Assembly (NCBI GenBank): GCA_010672925.1
Contig: JAAHFP010000012.1
Coordinates: 95,192-159,191 of the forward strand
DNA from: Symploca sp. SIO1C2
GTDB lineage: Bacteria; Cyanobacteriota; Cyanobacteriia; Cyanobacteriales; Coleofasciculaceae
Reading direction: 5' to 3'
Length of the DNA: 64,000 nt
Shown: piece by piece, positions 2,581-59,051 of the stretch
Numbering within the stretch: the first letter of the stretch is position 1
Layout: every line of letters starts with the position of its first letter
Translations under genes and position numbers: made by a program
The notes under the pieces: model-generated
Database searches by the model: none
The model's input: the letters and a program-made list of their open reading frames with translations, nothing else
Told to the model about the DNA's origin: nothing

Positions 2581-3048
2581 GTAGTAGGTTTTAGGTAGTA
2601 AGTGGCAGGGAGAAGCCAAAGAAATATCTTAATTGAAAGGAAGAGTTTTTATACAATCTCTTGTGGAACAGGCATCTTGCCTGTCTTAACAGTTGCTATC
2701 TGGGAAGATGCCTATTATAAAAAAAATAATAGCATAAAATAACAGCAATATCTTTAATCTCTAGTGGAACAGGCATCTTGCCTGTCTTAACAGTTGCTAT
2801 TTGGAAAGATGCCTATTATAAAAAAAATAATAGCATAAAATAGCAGCAATATCTTTAATCTCTCGTGGAACAGGCATCTTGCCTGTCTTAACGGTTGCTA
2901 TTTGGGAATATGCGAGCATCTAGGTTATTAACTAGCCCTAATCGTATTTTTTTACCTGACCAGACTCTACAGGCGCACACGTATCCCATTGTCCATAACA
3001 ATACCACCAAAAAGTAGATTGAGGGAAAATCAACTCATTATTCATTGC
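2581..3048. repeat. Non-coding spacer dominated by a 101-bp tandem repeat
   Basis: No gene is visible in this stretch. It begins with GTAGTAGGTTTTAG repeats, then holds the 101-bp tandem repeat described separately, and ends with about 130 bp of unassigned sequence before the propeller pseudogene. Confidence 0.7.
2658..2918. repeat. 101-bp tandem repeat, about 2.5 copies, with a perfect 7-bp hairpin
   Basis: The phrase GTGGAACAGGCATCTTGCC begins at 2663, 2764 and 2865, giving an exact 101-bp period. Each unit contains ACAGGCA-TCT-TGCCTGT, a perfect 7-bp stem with a 3-nt loop, followed by TTGCTAT and an A-rich run (attataaaaaaaataatagc). The hairpin core also occurs near 29281, 35167 and 40934, and the A-rich part recurs near 13370-13406, so the unit belongs to a dispersed repeat family. 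Confidence 0.92.
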
Positions 3049-3100
3049 TGGTTCGGCAATTCAGTAGCCATCAGTGTAGATGTGGCCATTGTCGGAGCAC

Positions 3101-3389
3101 GGTTAGCTGCATCCGTGTCAACTTAAGCCACAAGCCTTGCCAATTAATTGTTTCCAGCCGTTTGACTTTAACTGAGCGGGTGGCGTTACCCTACCCGATT
3201 AACAGGAGAAAGAGCCAGCGACAGGAGCATTCTCTTGCTCCCCCAGCTTCCCCAGCTTCCCCAGCTCCCACGGCTTCCCCAGCTTCCCCAGCTCCCCCGG
3301 CTTCCTCAGCTTCCCCAGCTTCCCCAGCTTCCCCAGCTCCCCATACTTCGAGCACTTTTCCGCTTAAGTTGACACCAATGGGTTAGCTG
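3101..3389. mobile_element. 271-bp MITE-like element with 9-bp target duplication
   Basis: The element covers 3110-3380. Its left end CATCCGTGTCAACTTAAGC (3110-3128) and right end GCTTAAGTTGACACCAATG (3362-3380) are inverted repeats matching at 17 of 19 positions. It is flanked by perfect 9-bp direct repeats GGTTAGCTG (3101-3109 and 3381-3389). It has no transposase frame, so it would be non-autonomous. The interior carries an array of the 9-mer GCTTCCCCA. A right-end-like fragment (16 of 19 matches) also lies at 8212-8230. Confidence 0.9.
3238..3346. repeat. 9-bp tandem repeat array GCTTCCCCA
   Basis: About twelve copies of GCTTCCCCA and close variants lie inside the MITE-like element. They produce the Pro/Ala/Ser-rich string of a spurious open frame. 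The array either expanded inside the element or was captured by it. Confidence 0.85.
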
Positions 3390-3445
3390 ATGCTCCTGGC
3401 CAACCTGATGCCGGGGCAGTCTATATTTTTCAGTCTGAGGACTAG

Positions 3446-3761
3446 TATCGCTACGGGAAATTAAGAATTAATAATCTTTATAAAGTAAGCATTCTATCGA
3501 CTTGTTTATAAGAATAACACCAATTCCTTGCACTTTAACCTAACAAGGGAAAGTTTAAGCAATGTATCAAAGTTGAAAGAATTATTAAATTTAGTTATTT
3601 GGGCAAAAATATTAACCTAAAATTCAAAGCCTAAATCCCGAAAAATGCAGTAGCATTCTCCACCCTAAGAGTGATGAATACGACTACAAAACTTAGTTAA
3701 AACTCCAAGAAAATATCTCTTGTGTAAAAATTTTCTACTTGGATTTAACAATATCAAACTG
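3446..3761. repeat. Spacer with a stop-codon-associated dispersed repeat
   Basis: Bases 3446-3510 match the sequence just after the intact propeller gene (13118-13190), after the amidase (from 54612) and, inverted, after the glycosyltransferase (60917-60982). The shared text is TAGTAYCGCTACGCGGAATTAAG, followed by GCTTATAGAGTAAGGATTCTATC. The rest of the gap is A+T-rich, with no recognised gene or leader. Confidence 0.75.
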
Positions 3762-5411
3762 ATGACACCCGTCGATTTGACTAAATGGACTGCTGAATCC
3801 TACGATCGCGCTCAGATTGGAGCCCTCAAATATAAAGCTCAGGAAGCGGAATGGCAGGTTTCCGCCGATGGCAAGTCAGTCACTCAACCGATGAATGGAC
3901 AACCCACTTTTTTCTATAGTGACTTTAAAAGTTTGGGGGCGAAAATCTCTGTTAAGGTTGATGTAGAAACCCGTGCTGACGATGACTTTATTGGTTTTGC
4001 GTTGAACTTCCAACCAGGGGATACTAGCAACCAAAATGCTGATTTTCTCTTGCTCAACTGGGACGCTGAAAAGCAACGAGAGGGACTGAAATTATCCCGA
4101 GTGCAAGGTATTCCCAGCTTCCTAGACTTTATTAAACTGCCAGAAGTAGCTAAGGGGAAAACTCTAGGCTCTAAAGCCTGGGAACACAAGACAATCTATC
4201 AGTTTGAGTTTATTTGCAGCAAAAACAAGTTGCAAATTTGGGTAGATGGAAGCTTGGAATTTGACTTGGATGGGGAGTTTGAGGATGGGCAGTTTGCCTG
4301 TTTCGATTGCTCTCAGCAAGGAGTGATTTTTAGCGATATTCAAGCTGATACCAAGGTCAGATTTATTGGAGGTGGCTCACCAACTAATATTAGCCGCAAT
4401 GTGGAATTCTCCGGTGGTTCAGAATATGGCGACGGTGACCTGCGGTTTAACCTCACCAATGGCACGACTAATGACCAGCTAAGCCTGACTAGTGCTGCTA
4501 ATCCTAACGCTAAAGGAGCTATCTCAGTGGATAGTTCTGGCTCCATTTTCCTGGGTAATGGTTCTGGCACTCGTCGCATTGGTTCGATTAACAGTAACGA
4601 AAATGGAACCAATGGTAAAGCCTTAACTATTAATTTCTCCAGTCCCCTCACTAATGGTGGGTTTGAAACTGGTGACTTGCAGGGTTGGACGGCTTTTGAG
4701 CAAAACTACAGCAGCGTCTACAACCTCAATGGTCAAAGTATTGCCTACCATTTCACTAATAGTAGGGGCGGTACAGGCACTGGTAGCATTATTGTTTCCA
4801 CCCCTTCTGGAACTCCGTCATATAGAGTCAGTATCGACAGCCAAACCGTGAGCAGCGGTAACTATGCCCTACGCTTAGTCAGTAGTGGCGCAATCACCGG
4901 TCCTTCGGGGCACGATAGTCCTTCGGGTAACGGCTCCCTCCACGGTCCTTACGTTCGTAGTGACCCCTTCCAAGCCTTCGCAGGCGATCGCATCGCGGTG
5001 GATTTTTCTGCTCAGCAGGGAAGTGATGCCTACGAAGTTTTCGGCTTTTTAGTCGAGACAGGCAGCAATACCCGCACTCAACTGTTTGCCAAGCGTGGTG
5101 ATCAAGTTCCTTTTAACCCAATCAACGGTACTGTTCCCGCTGATGGGGAGTATGAGTTTGAATTTGTCTGTGGCTCCTACGACAAAACCGGTGGACTTGC
5201 TCTTGGTGCCAGCTTGTTTGTAGACAATGTGCGGTTGGTTTCCGCTACTTTGATCACCGATGCTGTTATCCAAGCGATTACAGATCAGGTTACCTATAGC
5301 AACAATTCTCAAAATCCCCAGACTCACACCCGTCACCTCGAAATTACTCGCAAGACTGCTGACAAAGTAACGGATTCTACGACAGTGGATATTTTGTTTG
5401 GGACAGCTTAG
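3762..5411 (+). CDS. Thrombospondin-C-like N-domain protein with adhesin-like C-terminal modules
   Basis: The start is placed at the ATG at 3762 ([15 protein letters not shown]), because this matches the starts of the two propeller paralogues ([14 protein letters not shown]); the frame is open 42 bases further upstream only through a TTG. Residues 1 to about 205 form a thrombospondin-C-like jelly-roll domain ([36 protein letters not shown]). The C-terminal half differs from the paralogues: an [13 protein letters not shown] module typical of bacterial carbohydrate-binding or adhesin proteins, and a final stretch ([17 protein letters not shown]) like the cadherin-like repeats of large RTX-type adhesins. 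No signal peptide is visible. It looks like a chimaera of the cluster's N-domain and adhesin pieces. The exact function is unknown. Confidence 0.72.
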
Positions 5412-5728
<317 letters not shown>

Positions 5729-5748
5729 TAAGAGGATGAAAAAAACTG

Positions 5749-7584
5749 ATGAAACCCGTTGATTTAACTAAGTGGACAGTCGAAACCTATACTAAGAGGG
5801 ACATGCACGCAGAAAGGTATCTTAGTAAAAATCCTAGTAGAGGACTTCAGGAACAACCAAACTGGCATATCTTACCGGATGGCAAGTCAGTCCAACAATC
5901 TGTACAGTCTCTACCTACTTTTTTCTACAGTGACTTTAATGCCTTGGGTCACAAAATCTCCCTGACAGTTAATGCTGAGCAAAGTTTCATCAATAACTTT
6001 ATTGGCTTTGCTTTGAACTTTCAGCCAGGGGATGCTAAAGAAGACAAAGCAGATGCAGATTTTCTCTTGCTCAACTGGATGGCTAGAAGCGACCATAAAC
6101 CTGGACTGAGGTTATCGCGAATGAAGGGGCCTGTCTCCTATCTGGGTTTTTTTCGACTGCCGGAAGTAGTAGAGGCGAAAAACCTAGGTTCGGCAAAATG
6201 GGAACACGAGAGAGACTATCACTTCGAGATTGTTTTCACCAAAACTAAGTTGCAAATCTGGGTAGATAAGAGTCTAGAATTTGACCTTGACGATAACTTT
6301 GAGGACGGGAGATTTGCCCTGTTCGATTGTGCCCAGGACTTAATTGACTTTAAGGACATCCAAGCAGATCTTAAAGAAGACCCTCCTTCTTGGGAAAAAC
6401 TAACCCACCGCCAACTCCAACCCTCTGATTTAAAGACTAATGACGGTTTTGGCTGGTCTGTCGCCGTCAATAAGGAAACGGCGATTGTCGGGGCAGCTCT
6501 CAAAGAAGCTCCCGGCGGCAAAATGAATGCTGGAGCTGCCTACATCTTTCAACGAGAAGGGGGAACCTGGCAACAACAAGGAGGGCGGCTCCAACCCCCC
6601 CAATTACAGAGCAATGACATCTTTGGCTGTTCTGTGGCTATCAGTGAAAAGGCGGCGATTGTCGGGGTACTTGTAGGAGACCAAAAAAATCCAGGCTCAG
6701 CTTATATTTACCAATTAGAGGGAAAAACTTGGCAAGAAAAACCAGCACTCCAGCATTCTGATGGGGAAAAAGGAGATCAATTCGGCTGTTCTGTTGCCAT
6801 CAGTGGGGATATCGCGATTGTTGGAGCACAAGAAGCCGATGCTCCTGGCAAACCGCATATGGGGGCAGTCTATATCTACCAAAATCAAGGAGGAACCTGG
6901 ACACAACAAGGAGCGCCACTCCGACCCTCTGATGGGAAGAATGGGGATCGATTCGGCTGTTCTGTTGCCATCAGTGGGGATATTGCGATTATTGGAGCCA
7001 AGCAAGCTGACGTTGATGGTAAAGGTAATGCGGGAGCTGTTTATATCTTTCAACGGCAAGGGGCAACCTGGACACAACAACAGAAACTCACTGCTTCTGA
7101 TTTGGAGAGTCGGGACTTCTTCGGCTGTTCTGTTGCCATTAGTGGGGAGGTGGCAATTGTGGGAGCAAGCCAAGCTGCTGCTCCTGGGGGCAAAACCTAT
7201 GCTGGAGCTGCCTATATCTTTCAGTTGGAAGGGAAAACCTGGCAACAACAAGCCGGACCACTCCAACCTCCTCAATTACAGAGCAATGATGGCTTCGGCT
7301 GTTCTGTAGCTATTAGTAAGAAGCTGGCAATTGTGGGGGCAAACCAAGCGGATGCTTCTGGCAAAACCCATGCTGGAGCTGCCTATATGTATCAATGGGA
7401 AGGAGGAACTTGGCAACTATTAAAAAAACCAACACAACCACTCCAACCCCCCCAATTACAGAGCAATGACCTTTTCGGCTGTTCTGTGGCTATCAGTGAG
7501 GAAGTAGCGATCGTTGGGGCACAAGCAGCGGATACTGCTGGTACACAGGATACTGGAGCTGTCTATGTTTTTGAGGCTGGATAG
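5749..7584 (+). CDS. Thrombospondin-C-like domain plus 7-bladed FG-GAP beta-propeller protein
   Basis: Residues 1 to about 210 are the same thrombospondin-C-like domain as in the preceding gene ([36 protein letters not shown]). From about residue 220 to the end there are seven repeats of the form FGCSVAISGDIAIVGA followed by AGAVYIFQ, so a closed seven-bladed integrin-alpha-type propeller is predicted. Blade 2 is shorter than the others. There is no signal peptide or membrane segment, so a cytosolic or non-classically released binding protein is likely (inference). An upstream AAGAGGA may serve as the ribosome-binding site. A close paralogue lies at 11303-13117. Confidence 0.82.
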   Translation: MKPVDLTKWTVETYTKRDMHAERYLSKNPSRGLQEQPNWHILPDGKSVQQSVQSLPTFFYSDFNALGHKISLTVNAEQSFINNFIGFALNFQPGDAKEDKADADFLLLNWMARSDHKPGLRLSRMKGPVSYLGFFRLPEVVEAKNLGSAKWEHERDYHFEIVFTKTKLQIWVDKSLEFDLDDNFEDGRFALFDCAQDLIDFKDIQADLKEDPPSWEKLTHRQLQPSDLKTNDGFGWSVAVNKETAIVGAALKEAPGGKMNAGAAYIFQREGGTWQQQGGRLQPPQLQSNDIFGCSVAISEKAAIVGVLVGDQKNPGSAYIYQLEGKTWQEKPALQHSDGEKGDQFGCSVAISGDIAIVGAQEADAPGKPHMGAVYIYQNQGGTWTQQGAPLRPSDGKNGDRFGCSVAISGDIAIIGAKQADVDGKGNAGAVYIFQRQGATWTQQQKLTASDLESRDFFGCSVAISGEVAIVGASQAAAPGGKTYAGAAYIFQLEGKTWQQQAGPLQPPQLQSNDGFGCSVAISKKLAIVGANQADASGKTHAGAAYMYQWEGGTWQLLKKPTQPLQPPQLQSNDLFGCSVAISEEVAIVGAQAADTAGTQDTGAVYVFEAG

Positions 7585-11302: not shown

Positions 11303-13117
11303 ATGAAACCCGTTGATTTAACTCAATGGACAGTCGAAACCTATACTAAGGAAGCTATTCACGCACAAAAGTATGTTAGTAAATATCCTGGTAGAGGCAT
11401 TCAGGCTCAGCCCAATTGGGAAGTCTTAACTGATGGCAACTCAGTCGAACAATTGGAAGATTCCCTACCCACCTTTTTCTACAGTGACTTTAACGCCTTG
11501 GGTCACACAATCTCCGTTAAAGTTTATGCTGAACCGAGTAGGCACAATAACTTTATTGGCTTCGCCTTAAACTTTCAGCCAGGGGATACGGGCAGCCAAG
11601 ATGCTGATTTTCTCCTGCTCCACTGGGAGGCTAGAAGCGATCATTCCTATGGACTGAAATTATCCTCAGTGAAGGGCATTCCGACATTTCTGGGGTTTTT
11701 TCGCCTGCCGGAATTAGCAAAGGGGAAAACCCTAGGCTCGAGTAAATGGGAACACGAAAAAGACTATGAGTTCAAATTTGCTTTGAGCAAAAGCAAGTTG
11801 CAAATCTGGGTAAATAGCAGTCTGGAATTTGAGATCGACGGCAACTTCTCCGACGGGCGGTTTGCTCTGTTTGATTGCGCCCAGGAAAAAATCGACTTTA
11901 AGGAGATTCAAGCAGATCTAAAAGAAGATGTGTCTCCTTCTTGGGAAAAACTGAGTCAGACTAAACTCCAACCCTCTCAATTGCAGCGCTCTGGCTACTT
12001 CGGCCATTCAGTAGCCATCAGTGGGGGGCTGGCGATTGTCGGGGCACACTCTACCGATGCTCCTGGCAAACCCGATGCTGGGGTAGCCTATATTTTCAAG
12101 TTAGAAGGAGGAACCTGGCAATTACAACAGAAACTCCAACCCCCTGACTTGCACCGGGATGACTACTTCGGCTTGTCTGTAGCCATCAGTGGGAAGCTGG
12201 CGATTGTCGGGGCATATTGGAAAGATGCCTCTGGCAAACCTAATGCCGGGGCAGCCTATATCTTCAAGTTAGAAGGGGGAACCTGGCAACAACAACAGAA
12301 ACTCCAACCCCCTGACTTGCAGCACTCTGACTACTTCGGTTGGTCAGTAGCCATCAGTGGGGAGCTGGCGATTGTTGGGGCACTCTACACCGATGCTCCT
12401 GGCAAAGTTAATACCGGAGCCGCCTATATCTTCAAGTTGGCAGGGGCAACCTGGCAACAACAACAGAAACTCCAACCCCCTGACTTGCAGCGGGATGACC
12501 AGTTCGGCTGCTCTGTAGCCATCAGTGGGGAGCTGGCGATTGTTGGGGCACACTCTACCGATGCTCCTGGCAAACCCGATGCTGGGGCAGCTTATATCTT
12601 TAAGTTGGCAGGGGGAACCTGGCAACAACAGAAACTCCAACCCCCTGACTTGCAGAAGAATGACTACTTCGGTCATTCAGTAGCCATCAGTGGGGAGCTG
12701 GCGATTGTCGGGGCAAACCAAGCTGATGCTCCTGGCAAAGTTAATACCGGGGCAGCCTATATCTTTAAGTTGGCAGGGGGAACCTGGCACCAACAACAGA
12801 AACTCCAACCCCCTAACTTGCAGCGGAATGACATATTCGGCTGCTCTGTAGCCATCAGTGGGGAGCTGGCGATTGTCGGGGCACACCAAACTGAAGCTCC
12901 TGGCAAAGTTAATACCGGGGCAGCCTATATCTTTAAGTTGGCAGGGGGAACCTGGCAACAACAACAGAAACTCCAACCCCCTGACTTGCAGGAGAATGAC
13001 AAATTCGGCGATTCAGTAGCCATTAGTGAGGAGGTGGCGATTGTCGGGGCAAATACAGCTGATGCCCCTGGCATAGTTGATGTCGGGGCAGCCTATATTT
13101 TTCAGTCTGAAGACTAG
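11303..13117 (+). CDS. Thrombospondin-C-like domain plus 7-bladed FG-GAP beta-propeller protein (paralogue)
   Basis: The 604-residue product has the thrombospondin-C-like domain in residues 1-210 ([36 protein letters not shown]), then seven FG-GAP blades (FGHSVAISGELAIVGA then NTGAAYIFKL). Blade starts at 11999, 12167, 12335, 12503, 12668, 12836 and 13004 give a strict 168-bp (56-codon) period, with one 165-bp unit. Blades are nearly identical at DNA level in the linker (GGAACCTGGCAACAACAACA), unlike the more varied blades of the 5749 paralogue, so this array looks recently homogenised. No signal peptide is present. The C-terminal SED-stop matches the pseudogene ending at 3445. Confidence 0.83.
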   Translation: MKPVDLTQWTVETYTKEAIHAQKYVSKYPGRGIQAQPNWEVLTDGNSVEQLEDSLPTFFYSDFNALGHTISVKVYAEPSRHNNFIGFALNFQPGDTGSQDADFLLLHWEARSDHSYGLKLSSVKGIPTFLGFFRLPELAKGKTLGSSKWEHEKDYEFKFALSKSKLQIWVNSSLEFEIDGNFSDGRFALFDCAQEKIDFKEIQADLKEDVSPSWEKLSQTKLQPSQLQRSGYFGHSVAISGGLAIVGAHSTDAPGKPDAGVAYIFKLEGGTWQLQQKLQPPDLHRDDYFGLSVAISGKLAIVGAYWKDASGKPNAGAAYIFKLEGGTWQQQQKLQPPDLQHSDYFGWSVAISGELAIVGALYTDAPGKVNTGAAYIFKLAGATWQQQQKLQPPDLQRDDQFGCSVAISGELAIVGAHSTDAPGKPDAGAAYIFKLAGGTWQQQKLQPPDLQKNDYFGHSVAISGELAIVGANQADAPGKVNTGAAYIFKLAGGTWHQQQKLQPPNLQRNDIFGCSVAISGELAIVGAHQTEAPGKVNTGAAYIFKLAGGTWQQQQKLQPPDLQENDKFGDSVAISEEVAIVGANTADAPGIVDVGAAYIFQSED

Positions 13118-39921: not shown

Positions 39922-40300
39922 TGTTTTATAGCAAAAGGCAGAGGGCAGAAGGCAGAAGGCAGAAGGGAAGAGGTTGACAGGTATAGCAACGAGCGCTCGT
40001 GTGTTTACAGATTGACCGTGGTTAATAATCACCAAACCTTTATTTAACAGTACTTTTGACCCCCCTAACACCTAACACCTAACACCTAACACCTGCGCGA
40101 AGCGCTATAAAGGTTTACGGCATAAGGCAATTGTCCTAATCGCCTTGGCGATTGCTATACCAAAGCTAATTTGGTGGGTTAGGATAATATCTTGATGTAG
40201 GGGCGCAATGCTTGCGCCCAACAGTATATTTTTGTATTACCTACGACCTAAAACCTAAAACCTAAAACCTAAAACCTACCACCTACCACCTATATCAACT
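39922..40300. repeat. 379-bp spacer with several STRR families
   Basis: It holds GGCAGAA heptamers (39932-39966), CACCTAA heptamers (40068-40094), a GGGCGCAATGCTTGCGCCC hairpin (40201-40219) and CCTAAAA heptamers (40246-40280) that run to the next start codon. No gene is seen. Confidence 0.8.
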
Positions 40301-57613: not shown

Positions 57614-58813
57614 ATGACAACTACAATGAATTCTGCTAAACCCAATTCCCCGCTTCTCTCCATTGGTAATTTTACTGCTTCCAGAAGAGCTAGATTTTTC
57701 ACAACATTGCAGCAGCTAAAGTTTAATGGGCAACTTCTATTGAAAGATGCACACAACAGACAATGGGTCTTTTATCTCAATCGTGGCGACATTGCCTATG
57801 CGACAGGAGGCAGTACTCCAGTAAGACGGTGGGCAAGAAACTTAGCAACTTACTCTTCTCAGCTACCTCCTTATCTTCCTAATTTGCAAAAGGAGCTGTC
57901 TAGTATAGAAGCTGCTATCTTCACTACTTGCTGGGAATATGAGACCCTTTGTTTATGGATAAAACAGCAAAAAATAACCCTCGATCAAGCTACCAAAATA
58001 ATTAAAGCTATTACTATTGAGGTGTTGTTTGATATCGCCCAAGCTGGAGATGTTACTTATCAAATTAAACAAGATAATTCCTTATCTTCAGAACTTATCT
58101 TAATCGATTCTCAGCAAGCCATTGCTGCAACTCAAAAACTCTGGCAAGCTTGGCAAAATGCGAAGTTAATCAACTACTCTCCTAACAATGTCCCAATAAT
58201 TAAGCAACCAGAGCAACTTCAAGCTAGGACATCCCCCCAGGTTTACCAAACTTTGACCCGTATCCTCAATGGGCAACGCACCCTGCGGGAGCTGGCAGGA
58301 CAAATGAAGCGGGATATATTGTCAGTAACTTGTTCACTCCTGCCCTATATTCAAGCAGGTTTGGTTGAACTGGTTGCTGTTGCTGATTTTCCAGCTCCAA
58401 TATTCCCGTCTGTTCCTGAACAACCATCTATAGCTACAATTAGCCAAGATTTACTGATTGCTTGTGTGGATGATGATATTTGGGTTTGTAAGACAATGGA
58501 AAAATTGCTTACCGCAGCAGGGCATCAGTTTATGTGGATCAATGATGGTCTGCGGGCTCTGGCAACTATCCTAGCCCGAAAGCCGGATCTAATCTTCCTC
58601 GATTTAGTGATGCCCCAAACTAACGGCTATGAAATTTGTAGCAAGTTACGTAAGATTCCTTCTTTCCGTGATACCCCAATTATTATCTTAACTGGCAATG
58701 ACGGTGTTGTTGACCAAGTTCGGGCTAGGCTGTTTGGAGCTTCAGATTTTATCAGTAAACCTATTGATGCTGAGACAGTATTAAGCGTAATCCATAAACA
58801 CGCGACCGAATAG
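57614..58813 (+). CDS. PatA-like response regulator (DUF4388 domain plus C-terminal REC)
   Basis: The 399-residue protein has an N-terminal PATAN/DUF4388 region (LQQLKFNGQLLLKDAHNRQW, FYLNRGDIAYATGG), a middle linker, and a C-terminal REC domain with phospho-acceptor LIFLDLVMPQTNGYE and KPID. The layout matches PatA and PixG-type regulators of pattern formation and pilus-based phototaxis. The next gene is a CheY-like PixH-type protein, but no CheW, MCP or CheA gene follows, so the system is incomplete here. A start at 57614 fits the domain's beginning. Confidence 0.9.
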   Translation: MTTTMNSAKPNSPLLSIGNFTASRRARFFTTLQQLKFNGQLLLKDAHNRQWVFYLNRGDIAYATGGSTPVRRWARNLATYSSQLPPYLPNLQKELSSIEAAIFTTCWEYETLCLWIKQQKITLDQATKIIKAITIEVLFDIAQAGDVTYQIKQDNSLSSELILIDSQQAIAATQKLWQAWQNAKLINYSPNNVPIIKQPEQLQARTSPQVYQTLTRILNGQRTLRELAGQMKRDILSVTCSLLPYIQAGLVELVAVADFPAPIFPSVPEQPSIATISQDLLIACVDDDIWVCKTMEKLLTAAGHQFMWINDGLRALATILARKPDLIFLDLVMPQTNGYEICSKLRKIPSFRDTPIIILTGNDGVVDQVRARLFGASDFISKPIDAETVLSVIHKHATE

Positions 58814-58826
58814 TAAATAGTGGTAA

Positions 58827-58870
58827 AATCTTGAGGAAGCTGGGGAAGCTGAGGAAGCTGAGGAAGAAGA
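58827..58870. repeat. GAGGAAGCT-type 9-mer repeat
   Basis: Several copies of GAGGAAGCTG/GGGGAAGCT follow the PatA-like gene, and AATGACC/AATGACT heptamers lie at 58978-59015, just before the CheY-like gene. Confidence 0.8.
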
Positions 58871-59051
58871 ACCACAATTTTTCTGAATCCTTGGTTGTTT
58901 CTATATATAGTTTTTGCGAGAGTGCCCAAACGCTATATATGGGAGTTGACAAAATGCGCGATCGCTTAACTTGTCACCAATGACTAATGACTAATGACCA
59001 ATGACCAATGACCAATAACTCTTGACCACTTTCAACTGTAAGGTAAATATT

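Follow-up and report, generated by a model that had tools for sequence, protein, structure and literature searches.

Insertion of a MITE in a remnant FG-GAP repeat

The window, a stretch of 64,000 nucleotides from Symploca sp. SIO1C2, holds a cluster of FG-GAP genes in its first part. The N-terminal parts of three paralogues (3720-5411, 5749-7584 and 11303-13117) look alike by eye, and FG-GAP-like repeats are found in those at 5749-7584 and 11303-13117 and not in the one at 3720-5411. Between paralogous genes of the cluster, positions 5410-5700 are occupied by long minisatellites of 7-bp (GGGAATT) and 9-bp (TCTCCCTTG) units; a BLAST search with this segment also matched a minisatellite adjoining an M16 gene in a genome of the same genus (G002). 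Another repeat lies at 2701-2902, just upstream of the feature described here, where a 101-bp unit with internal dyads (ACAGGCATCTTGCCTGT) occurs twice in tandem, the two copies being 96% alike.

A 271-bp element interrupts a short FG-GAP reading frame between two perfect copies (9/9) of the 9-mer GGTTAGCTG (Table 1). Its inverted arms, each of 19 nt, pair at 17 positions (89% complementary), and its right end agrees at 17/17 positions with the GTGTCAAC-type end of the family described below. The element is short and without a transposase gene. The sole ORF of at least 80 aa across it is a 9-bp minisatellite of 12 units translated as a Pro-rich protein, and this 113-aa ORF is spurious. The original prediction, made from the DNA letters alone, had correctly warned that the frame crossing the insertion would be annotated as a false Pro-rich gene.

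Table 1. Features of the insertion and its surroundings, in positions of the window
Feature	Position	Strand	Basis
Spurious 113-aa Pro-rich ORF across the element, TTG start	3045..3386	+	ORF list
5' part of FG-GAP repeat remnant (FGNSVAISVDVAIVGARLA)	3052..3109	+	frame joining, paralogue alignment
Left arm (GGAGCA) of 6-bp target-site hairpin	3094..3099	+	stem search, folding
Left copy of 9-bp target-site duplication (TSD) GGTTAGCTG	3101..3109	+	repeat search
271-bp MITE (GTGTCAAC-ended family, minisatellite-bearing subfamily)	3110..3380	+	arms, TSD, family copies
Left terminal inverted repeat CATCCGTGTCAACTTAAGC	3110..3128	+	repeat search
Internal 9-bp minisatellite, 12.0 units of GCTTCCCCA	3237..3343	+	TRF
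Right terminal inverted repeat; outer 17 bases on the - strand exactly CATTGGTGTCAACTTAA	3362..3380	-	end match
Right copy of 9-bp target-site duplication	3381..3389	+	repeat search
3' part of FG-GAP repeat remnant, stop codon 3443-3445	3390..3445	+	frame joining
Right arm (TGCTCC) of target-site hairpin	3391..3396	+	stem search, folding

Removal of the element together with one flanking 9-mer restores the FG-GAP frame exactly, as had been proposed. The flanks joined over a single 9-mer give one frame, FGNSVAISVDVAIVGARLADAPGQPDAGAVYIFQSED, followed by a stop, and the frame is lost when the join is shifted by one or two bases in either direction. Aligned with the paralogue at 5749-7584 the joined frame scores 124, whereas the best of 300 shuffles scores 44. 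The residues around the join had been described as the same as those of the intact paralogue, but they are merely similar (IVGARLADAPG vs IVGANTADAPG and IVGAQEADAPG). The repeat that closes the gene at 11303-13117 matches the joined sequence best, with 28/37 residues identical and the ending YIFQSED-stop in common; the best repeat of the gene at 5749-7584 is identical at 25/37.

The interrupted piece is the C-terminal remnant of a paralogue rather than a whole gene or a split intact one, because just 37 codons and a stop are recognisable and the 151 bases upstream (2901-3051), translated and judged by eye, hold no FG-GAP-like sequence. The earlier claim that the insertion splits an FG-GAP gene is thus right about the frame and wrong about the gene, and the additional propeller gene that it placed in the cluster is supported as a relic. 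The empty sites that were sought in relatives did not appear: no allele without the element spans the site among the matches listed for 37 genomes, with at most 16 candidates scored in each. Flanks of up to 1.5 kb at 17 loci in 16 relatives, where the M16 gene found upstream in the window is present, contain no FG-GAP motif, and the only match of window 2581-5760 in a BLAST search against these M16 loci is a minisatellite at one locus.

A MITE family in the window's genome

The element belongs to a MITE family, of which about 270 ends can be recognised in the genome. The assembly (8.67 Mb, 245 contigs, 97.9% complete) has 273 sites within two mismatches of CATTGGTGTCAACTTAA, compared with 3 for a reversed-pattern control. 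From 102 loci, many of them overlapping, 46 non-redundant pairs of ends were recovered at separate sites, each with a 9-bp TSD that agrees at 7/9 or more positions. The pairs are 110-776 bp long, the longest covering two elements, and four of them have GTGACAAG-type ends (L003, L010 twice and L021). Another 58 rows of ends with at most one mismatch were left unpaired in the same loci, a number that includes single ends seen in overlapping loci and two-ended copies whose TSD is lost or shifted.

The same ends are found on copies with several different interiors. In the subfamily of the window copy (GCCACAA...) the interior carries a 9-bp array whose length varies widely. A genome search with the element, in which 40 of 468 first-look candidates were scored to give 92 matches, gave one copy at 95% and another 18 places similar to the element's left part. 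Among those scored, the copy most like that of the window is L002 (95% over its match); it sits in a palindrome and is flanked by a TSD of its own, CACCGACGT; its array has 5 units and that of the window copy 9 by the same count (TRF gives 12.0 for the window copy). The difference in unit number between these close copies most likely reflects slippage after transposition.

The inverted arms, the TSD and the copies elsewhere in the genome bear out the MITE-like insertion that was first proposed, and also its forecast that other copies would have the same ends and 9-bp duplications. The expectation that GGTTAGCTG itself would surround them was mistaken, as every copy duplicates its own target. 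A segment that had never moved might owe its ends and 9-mers to chance, or be a recombination product of minisatellites, and it is true that the 9-bp array by itself matches many places in the genome and that short tandem repeats are frequent in the loci we read. Ends, interior and TSD nonetheless recur together elsewhere, L002 included, and removal of the segment restores the FG-GAP frame exactly. We give immobility of the 271-bp segment practically no credence, and for the family it is refuted, because copies elsewhere have their own duplications.

Target sites

MITEs with GTGTCAAC ends are preferentially found in short palindromic repeats tagged with GTAG; this preference was absent from the original prediction. 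Empty sites were built in scripts by joining the flanks of 41 de-duplicated copies with a TSD of at least 8/9, of which 38 have GTGTCAAC ends and 3 have GTGACAAG ends. The palindrome was defined as TAGGGGCGC-N4-12-GCGCCC and takes the form GTAGGGGCGC...GCGCCC, also written GTAGGGGCGCACCGACGTGCGCCCTC. With up to three mismatches it is matched by 24/38 of the GTGTCAAC copies and 0/3 of the GTGACAAG copies, fractions that apply to sites selected for intact TSDs and may not hold for decayed copies. At 0, 1, 2 and 3 mismatches, 11, 18, 23 and 24 of the 41 sites match, compared with 0, 0, 7 and 24 of 20,500 control positions (0.12% at three mismatches). In each of the 24 palindrome sites, TSD and dyad centres are at most 1 nt apart. 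For the 41 copies the longest perfect stem across the site has a mean of 4.98, vs 2.98 for control positions in the same loci, and stems of at least 8 bp are present at 12/41 sites vs 0.33% of control positions.

The same palindrome also occurs unoccupied. The genome holds 67 such copies with exact arms at scattered places, where a reversed control gives 0, and the cores of many are identical to MITE TSDs; one copy lies in the window at 40198-40219. The repeat is short, palindromic and multicopy, with GTAGGGGCG at one end in many sites, as in GTAG REPs. When 27 loci from genomes of relatives were read by eye, nine distinct copies with a TSD of at least 6/9 were found, seven of them in GTAG-type palindromes.

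Prokaryotic MITEs are described as normally intergenic (PMC10969869), and random insertion followed by survival in intergenic repeats could in principle yield a palindrome preference as a by-product of purifying selection. This we consider very improbable: control positions from the same loci lie in a palindrome in 0.12% of cases, against 24/41 of the actual sites, TSD and dyad centres coincide to within 1 nt, and the sister MITE class and its ISs, to which we return below, have no such preference.

The window copy is one of the 14/38 GTGTCAAC copies that lie outside a palindrome. In its reconstructed empty site the duplication lies at the centre of a perfect 6-bp stem (GGAGCA/TGCTCC); a stem of this length or longer is found at 2.1% of control positions, and DNA folding of the site gives z = -2.07, with 9/200 shuffles as good. 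Taken together, the 14 off-palindrome copies have stems no longer than control (p = 0.38) and a folding energy of -11.8 vs -6.2 for control (p = 0.0001). These values are no more than suggestive of hairpin reading at off-palindrome sites, and the short hairpin may be the reason that the element landed at this position in the window.

IS4-family ISs with the same ends

IS4-family ISs of about 1.4 kb in other cyanobacteria share the MITE family's 17-bp ends, TSD length and palindromic target, and so provide what the original prediction had called for, a transposase whose elements have these ends and make 9-bp duplications. Both ends agree at 17/17 positions in seven IS loci, all outside the window's genome (L255, L256, L268, L269, L270, L274 and L275); L267 deviates at a single position of one end, L266 and L271 match exactly at one end, and genome G056 carries 8 copies of CACTGGTGTCAAGTTAA. 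TSD lengths, assigned by hand for each locus, are full in 12 of 16 IS sites (9 bp; 10 bp in G056), 8/9 in one, and none or partial in three. Stems of at least 5 bp are present at 12/16 sites (control 7.6%), and GTAGGGGC or GCCCCTAC lies within 35 bases of 13/16. Both TSD and palindrome are absent at L256, and a full TSD is missing from L274 and L275. The 16 rows represent fewer than 16 events, because 8 copies come from the single genome G056 and L268 and L269 have look-alike inverted flanks.

The transposase carries the DDE_Tnp_1 domain (Pfam PF01609) of IS4-type DDE enzymes and scores 186 and 196.4 bits against the IS4-family model NF033592 of NCBIfam (cut-off 115). The Y(2)R(3)E(6)K motif is present as YRRRWKIEEAFSLTK in L255 and L256 and as YRQRWRIEEAFLVTK in L258, and the duplications, 9 bp or in G056 10 bp, are about one helix turn. 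Elements of the IS4Sa subgroup have ends that begin with CA, in the form CA------T, and duplicate 8-10 bp (PMC2266710, Table 1); the ends here, CATTGGTGT, with duplications of 9-10 bp, conform to this description. By eye, MITE and IS have only about the terminal 18 bp in common.

Apart from L274 and L275, the exact-end ISs come from a search of 195 genomes of the order with the transposase of an IS with CATTGGTGACAAGTTAA ends, which gave a match at E 1e-20 in 54 genomes, the window's genome not among them, and from stretches fetched around more matches. A pattern-based scan of named genomes found four relatives, each with exact ends: in Oscillatoriales cyanobacterium S07.Bin090 (100% identical to the query L255), Cyanobacteria bacterium SBLK (89%), Microcystis wesenbergii FACHB-1317 (75%, L274) and Nostoc sp. 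NMS7 (partial, L275). The S07.Bin090 and SBLK copies look to be L255 and L256 themselves and were not recounted. A search with the L255 transposase at E 0.001 gave no match in either the window's genome or G001, and six in G002, 35-51% identical and on three contigs, and the locus read from each of these contigs has a GTGACAAG-type end. A collapsed multi-copy IS could be missing from the window's genome, because the assembly is 97.9% complete in 245 contigs. We infer that the driver IS has been lost from this genome or lies unassembled in it.

Other candidate drivers were rejected. The four PF01609 proteins of the window's genome are without matching ends. IS1 ends, GGTGATGCTGCCAACTTA, are similar in look to the MITE ends. 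The IS1 domain PF03400 is absent from G000, G001 and G002, and among 27 IS1-type loci elsewhere none has an end with one mismatch or fewer, three having a single distant match with two. Nor do the unpaired MITE ends appear to be halves of full-length ISs: inspection of the ORFs of L041, L044 and L054 by eye revealed no transposase, and the own-genome regions checked gave no TSD-flanked pair longer than 776 bp. Beside single ends in the loci of relatives, no transposase was recognised in the first 70 residues of each ORF.

Target choice and end type

A related end, CATTGGTGACAAGTTAA, is found on IS4-type ISs in genomes of the same family. ISs or remnants of this GTGACAAG type occur in G002, the genome of the same genus, and in G011, G013 and G018. 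Among the sister ISs the ends are mostly GTGACAAG, with GTGACAAC and TTAGAAG among the variants. We compiled 17 sister sites (7 from 9 with a duplication, then L244, L257 and L279, then 7 more, with the result unchanged). TSDs of at least 8 bp are present at 11/17, stems of at least 5 bp at 0/17, and an adjoining GTAGGGGC at 0/17. Target choice therefore follows end type, as the sister ISs with other ends do not lie in the palindrome.

A tree of 17 transposases (of 19 chosen, L268 and L274 were left out, being too short or not recovered) groups the rows with GTGTCAA ends at 100/100, apart from 12 rows with other ends, a grouping that rests on three GTGTCAA rows in a tree whose branch at L258 is marked by the program as long. 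The nearest row to this group, L243, has an in-between end, GATGGGTGACAACTTAA, and no palindrome.

The sister clade, with GTGACAAG ends (CATTGGTGACAAGTTAA), might itself be the source of the MITE in the window. It is present, as ISs or remnants, in the four genomes named above, one of them of the same genus; 15/17 end positions are shared, and many sister ISs have 9-bp duplications. We nevertheless judge a sister-clade origin improbable. The element's right end agrees with the GTGTCAAC end at every one of 17 positions, the window's genome has a separate class of GTGACAAG-ended MITEs, and palindrome use is 0/3 for that class and 0/17 for the sister ISs. One GTGACAAG element of the window's genome (L010) and one IS of the same class in G002 (L279) have look-alike sites, GGTATTAGG and GGTGTTAGG, and one GTGTCAAC copy, L105, lies in GGTGGTAGG; it may be that the sister class has a target preference of its own.

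Proposed mechanism

We conclude, with a probability that we put at about 85%, that a MITE was inserted in the last FG-GAP repeat of a paralogue now decayed, with a 9-bp TSD, and that its family was most likely moved in trans by the IS4-family transposase of ISs that share its 17-bp ends, TSD length and preference for GTAG palindromes. The IS clade of the L255 type is the most likely driver. An IS4-type DDE transposase would bind a MITE copy at its two ends, which after cleavage would attack the target about one helix turn apart, leaving a 9-bp duplication. The GTGTCAAC clade would prefer the middle of GTAG palindromes, and we propose that the MITEs follow this preference because they carry GTGTCAAC-clade ends. 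The window copy would then be a rarer insertion outside a palindrome.

A more specific version is speculative, and we think it unlikely. One IS4 clade might read hairpin geometry together with GTAGGGGC and make a staggered cut around the dyad centre; the MITEs would inherit this through end type alone, and off-target copies like that in the window would land in look-alike genic hairpins. If this is true, the GTGTCAAC and GTGACAAG sister clades, whose transposases have near-identical ends and opposite target preference, form a natural pair for mapping target choice.

Relationship to known systems

Nezha, a MITE of Anabaena, is reportedly driven by an IS4-type IS. By description, the family studied here can be likened to it as a cyanobacterial MITE; Nezha is named in PMC10969869 and PMC3733652. 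Cut-and-paste transposition by IS4-type transposases has been described (PMC4907049, PMC2266710). ISRm22, an IS4-family element of subgroup IS4Sa in Sinorhizobium meliloti, is inserted in REP palindromes (10/10 copies in a table and nine in the text of PMC1525189). The likeness to it, again by description, lies in an IS4-family transposase and REP-palindrome insertions, and the ends and duplications here conform to the IS4Sa pattern of CA ends and 8-10 bp direct repeats. ISRm22, however, is a full IS of another phylum, whereas all elements found with these ends in the window's genome are non-autonomous. The IS4Sa-like ISs of Anabaena sp. WA102, IS4 elements of another cyanobacterium, have a reported end, CCGCCTTGTCACCCGTTAAG, that is similar to the MITE ends without being the same sequence (PMC4907049); in its account of these ISs, that paper describes no target preference.

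GTAG REPs occur in cyanobacteria (PMC3733652), and the target palindrome is like them by description, being short and multicopy with GTAG at one end. Section 7 of that source deals with REPs inside other palindromes, not with MITEs inside REPs. In a literature search of limited depth we noticed work on IS-to-REP targeting and none on MITE-to-REP targeting, and the end sequence as a text string had no literature match. MITEs, minisatellite-bearing MITEs and REP-targeting ISs are each known, and it is the combination that is new: a REP-targeting MITE family, with a driver known only from other species and a sister end type without targeting, for which the same limited search revealed no precedent. 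The implication is that one insertion in a pseudogene opens a tractable system, in which the driver can be named by three hallmarks though it was not found in the host genome.

Shared minisatellite units and nested elements

BrickBuilt of Porphyromonas gingivalis is a MITE with an internal minisatellite of a 23-nt unit and is reported as always intergenic (PMC4596501). The window's MITE resembles it in having an internal minisatellite but differs in its 9-nt unit, which is present in other MITE classes of the genome too, and in its unrelated host. The 9-bp unit (CAGCTTCCC and near variants) is common to three MITE classes with different interiors, which have GTGTCAAC ends, the related GTGACAAG ends, and unrelated GGGTGAGCGAAA / TTTCGTTCACCC ends on a nested element. 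It can be seen in L010 and L021 (GTGACAAG class), in the nested element of L110, and in the window at 3237-3343. Ten array loci were checked (L020 and L028 overlap); six are bounded by GTGACAAG or GGGTGAGCG ends and four by none of the three. A further part of the window, 58790-59000, between two response-regulator-like genes, has a sister-class interior with a short 9-bp array and an exact GTGACAAG-type end at 58966-58982; its opposite end was not found.

The locus and its relatives set two traps for annotation, the false Pro-rich gene and repeats nested in repeats. The second MITE class, with GGGTGAGCGAAA / TTTCGTTCACCC ends and a length of 139-147 bp, is nested in GTGTCAAC MITEs at L024, L012, L025 and L110, and a 9-bp duplication was seen by eye in 4/4 of these.
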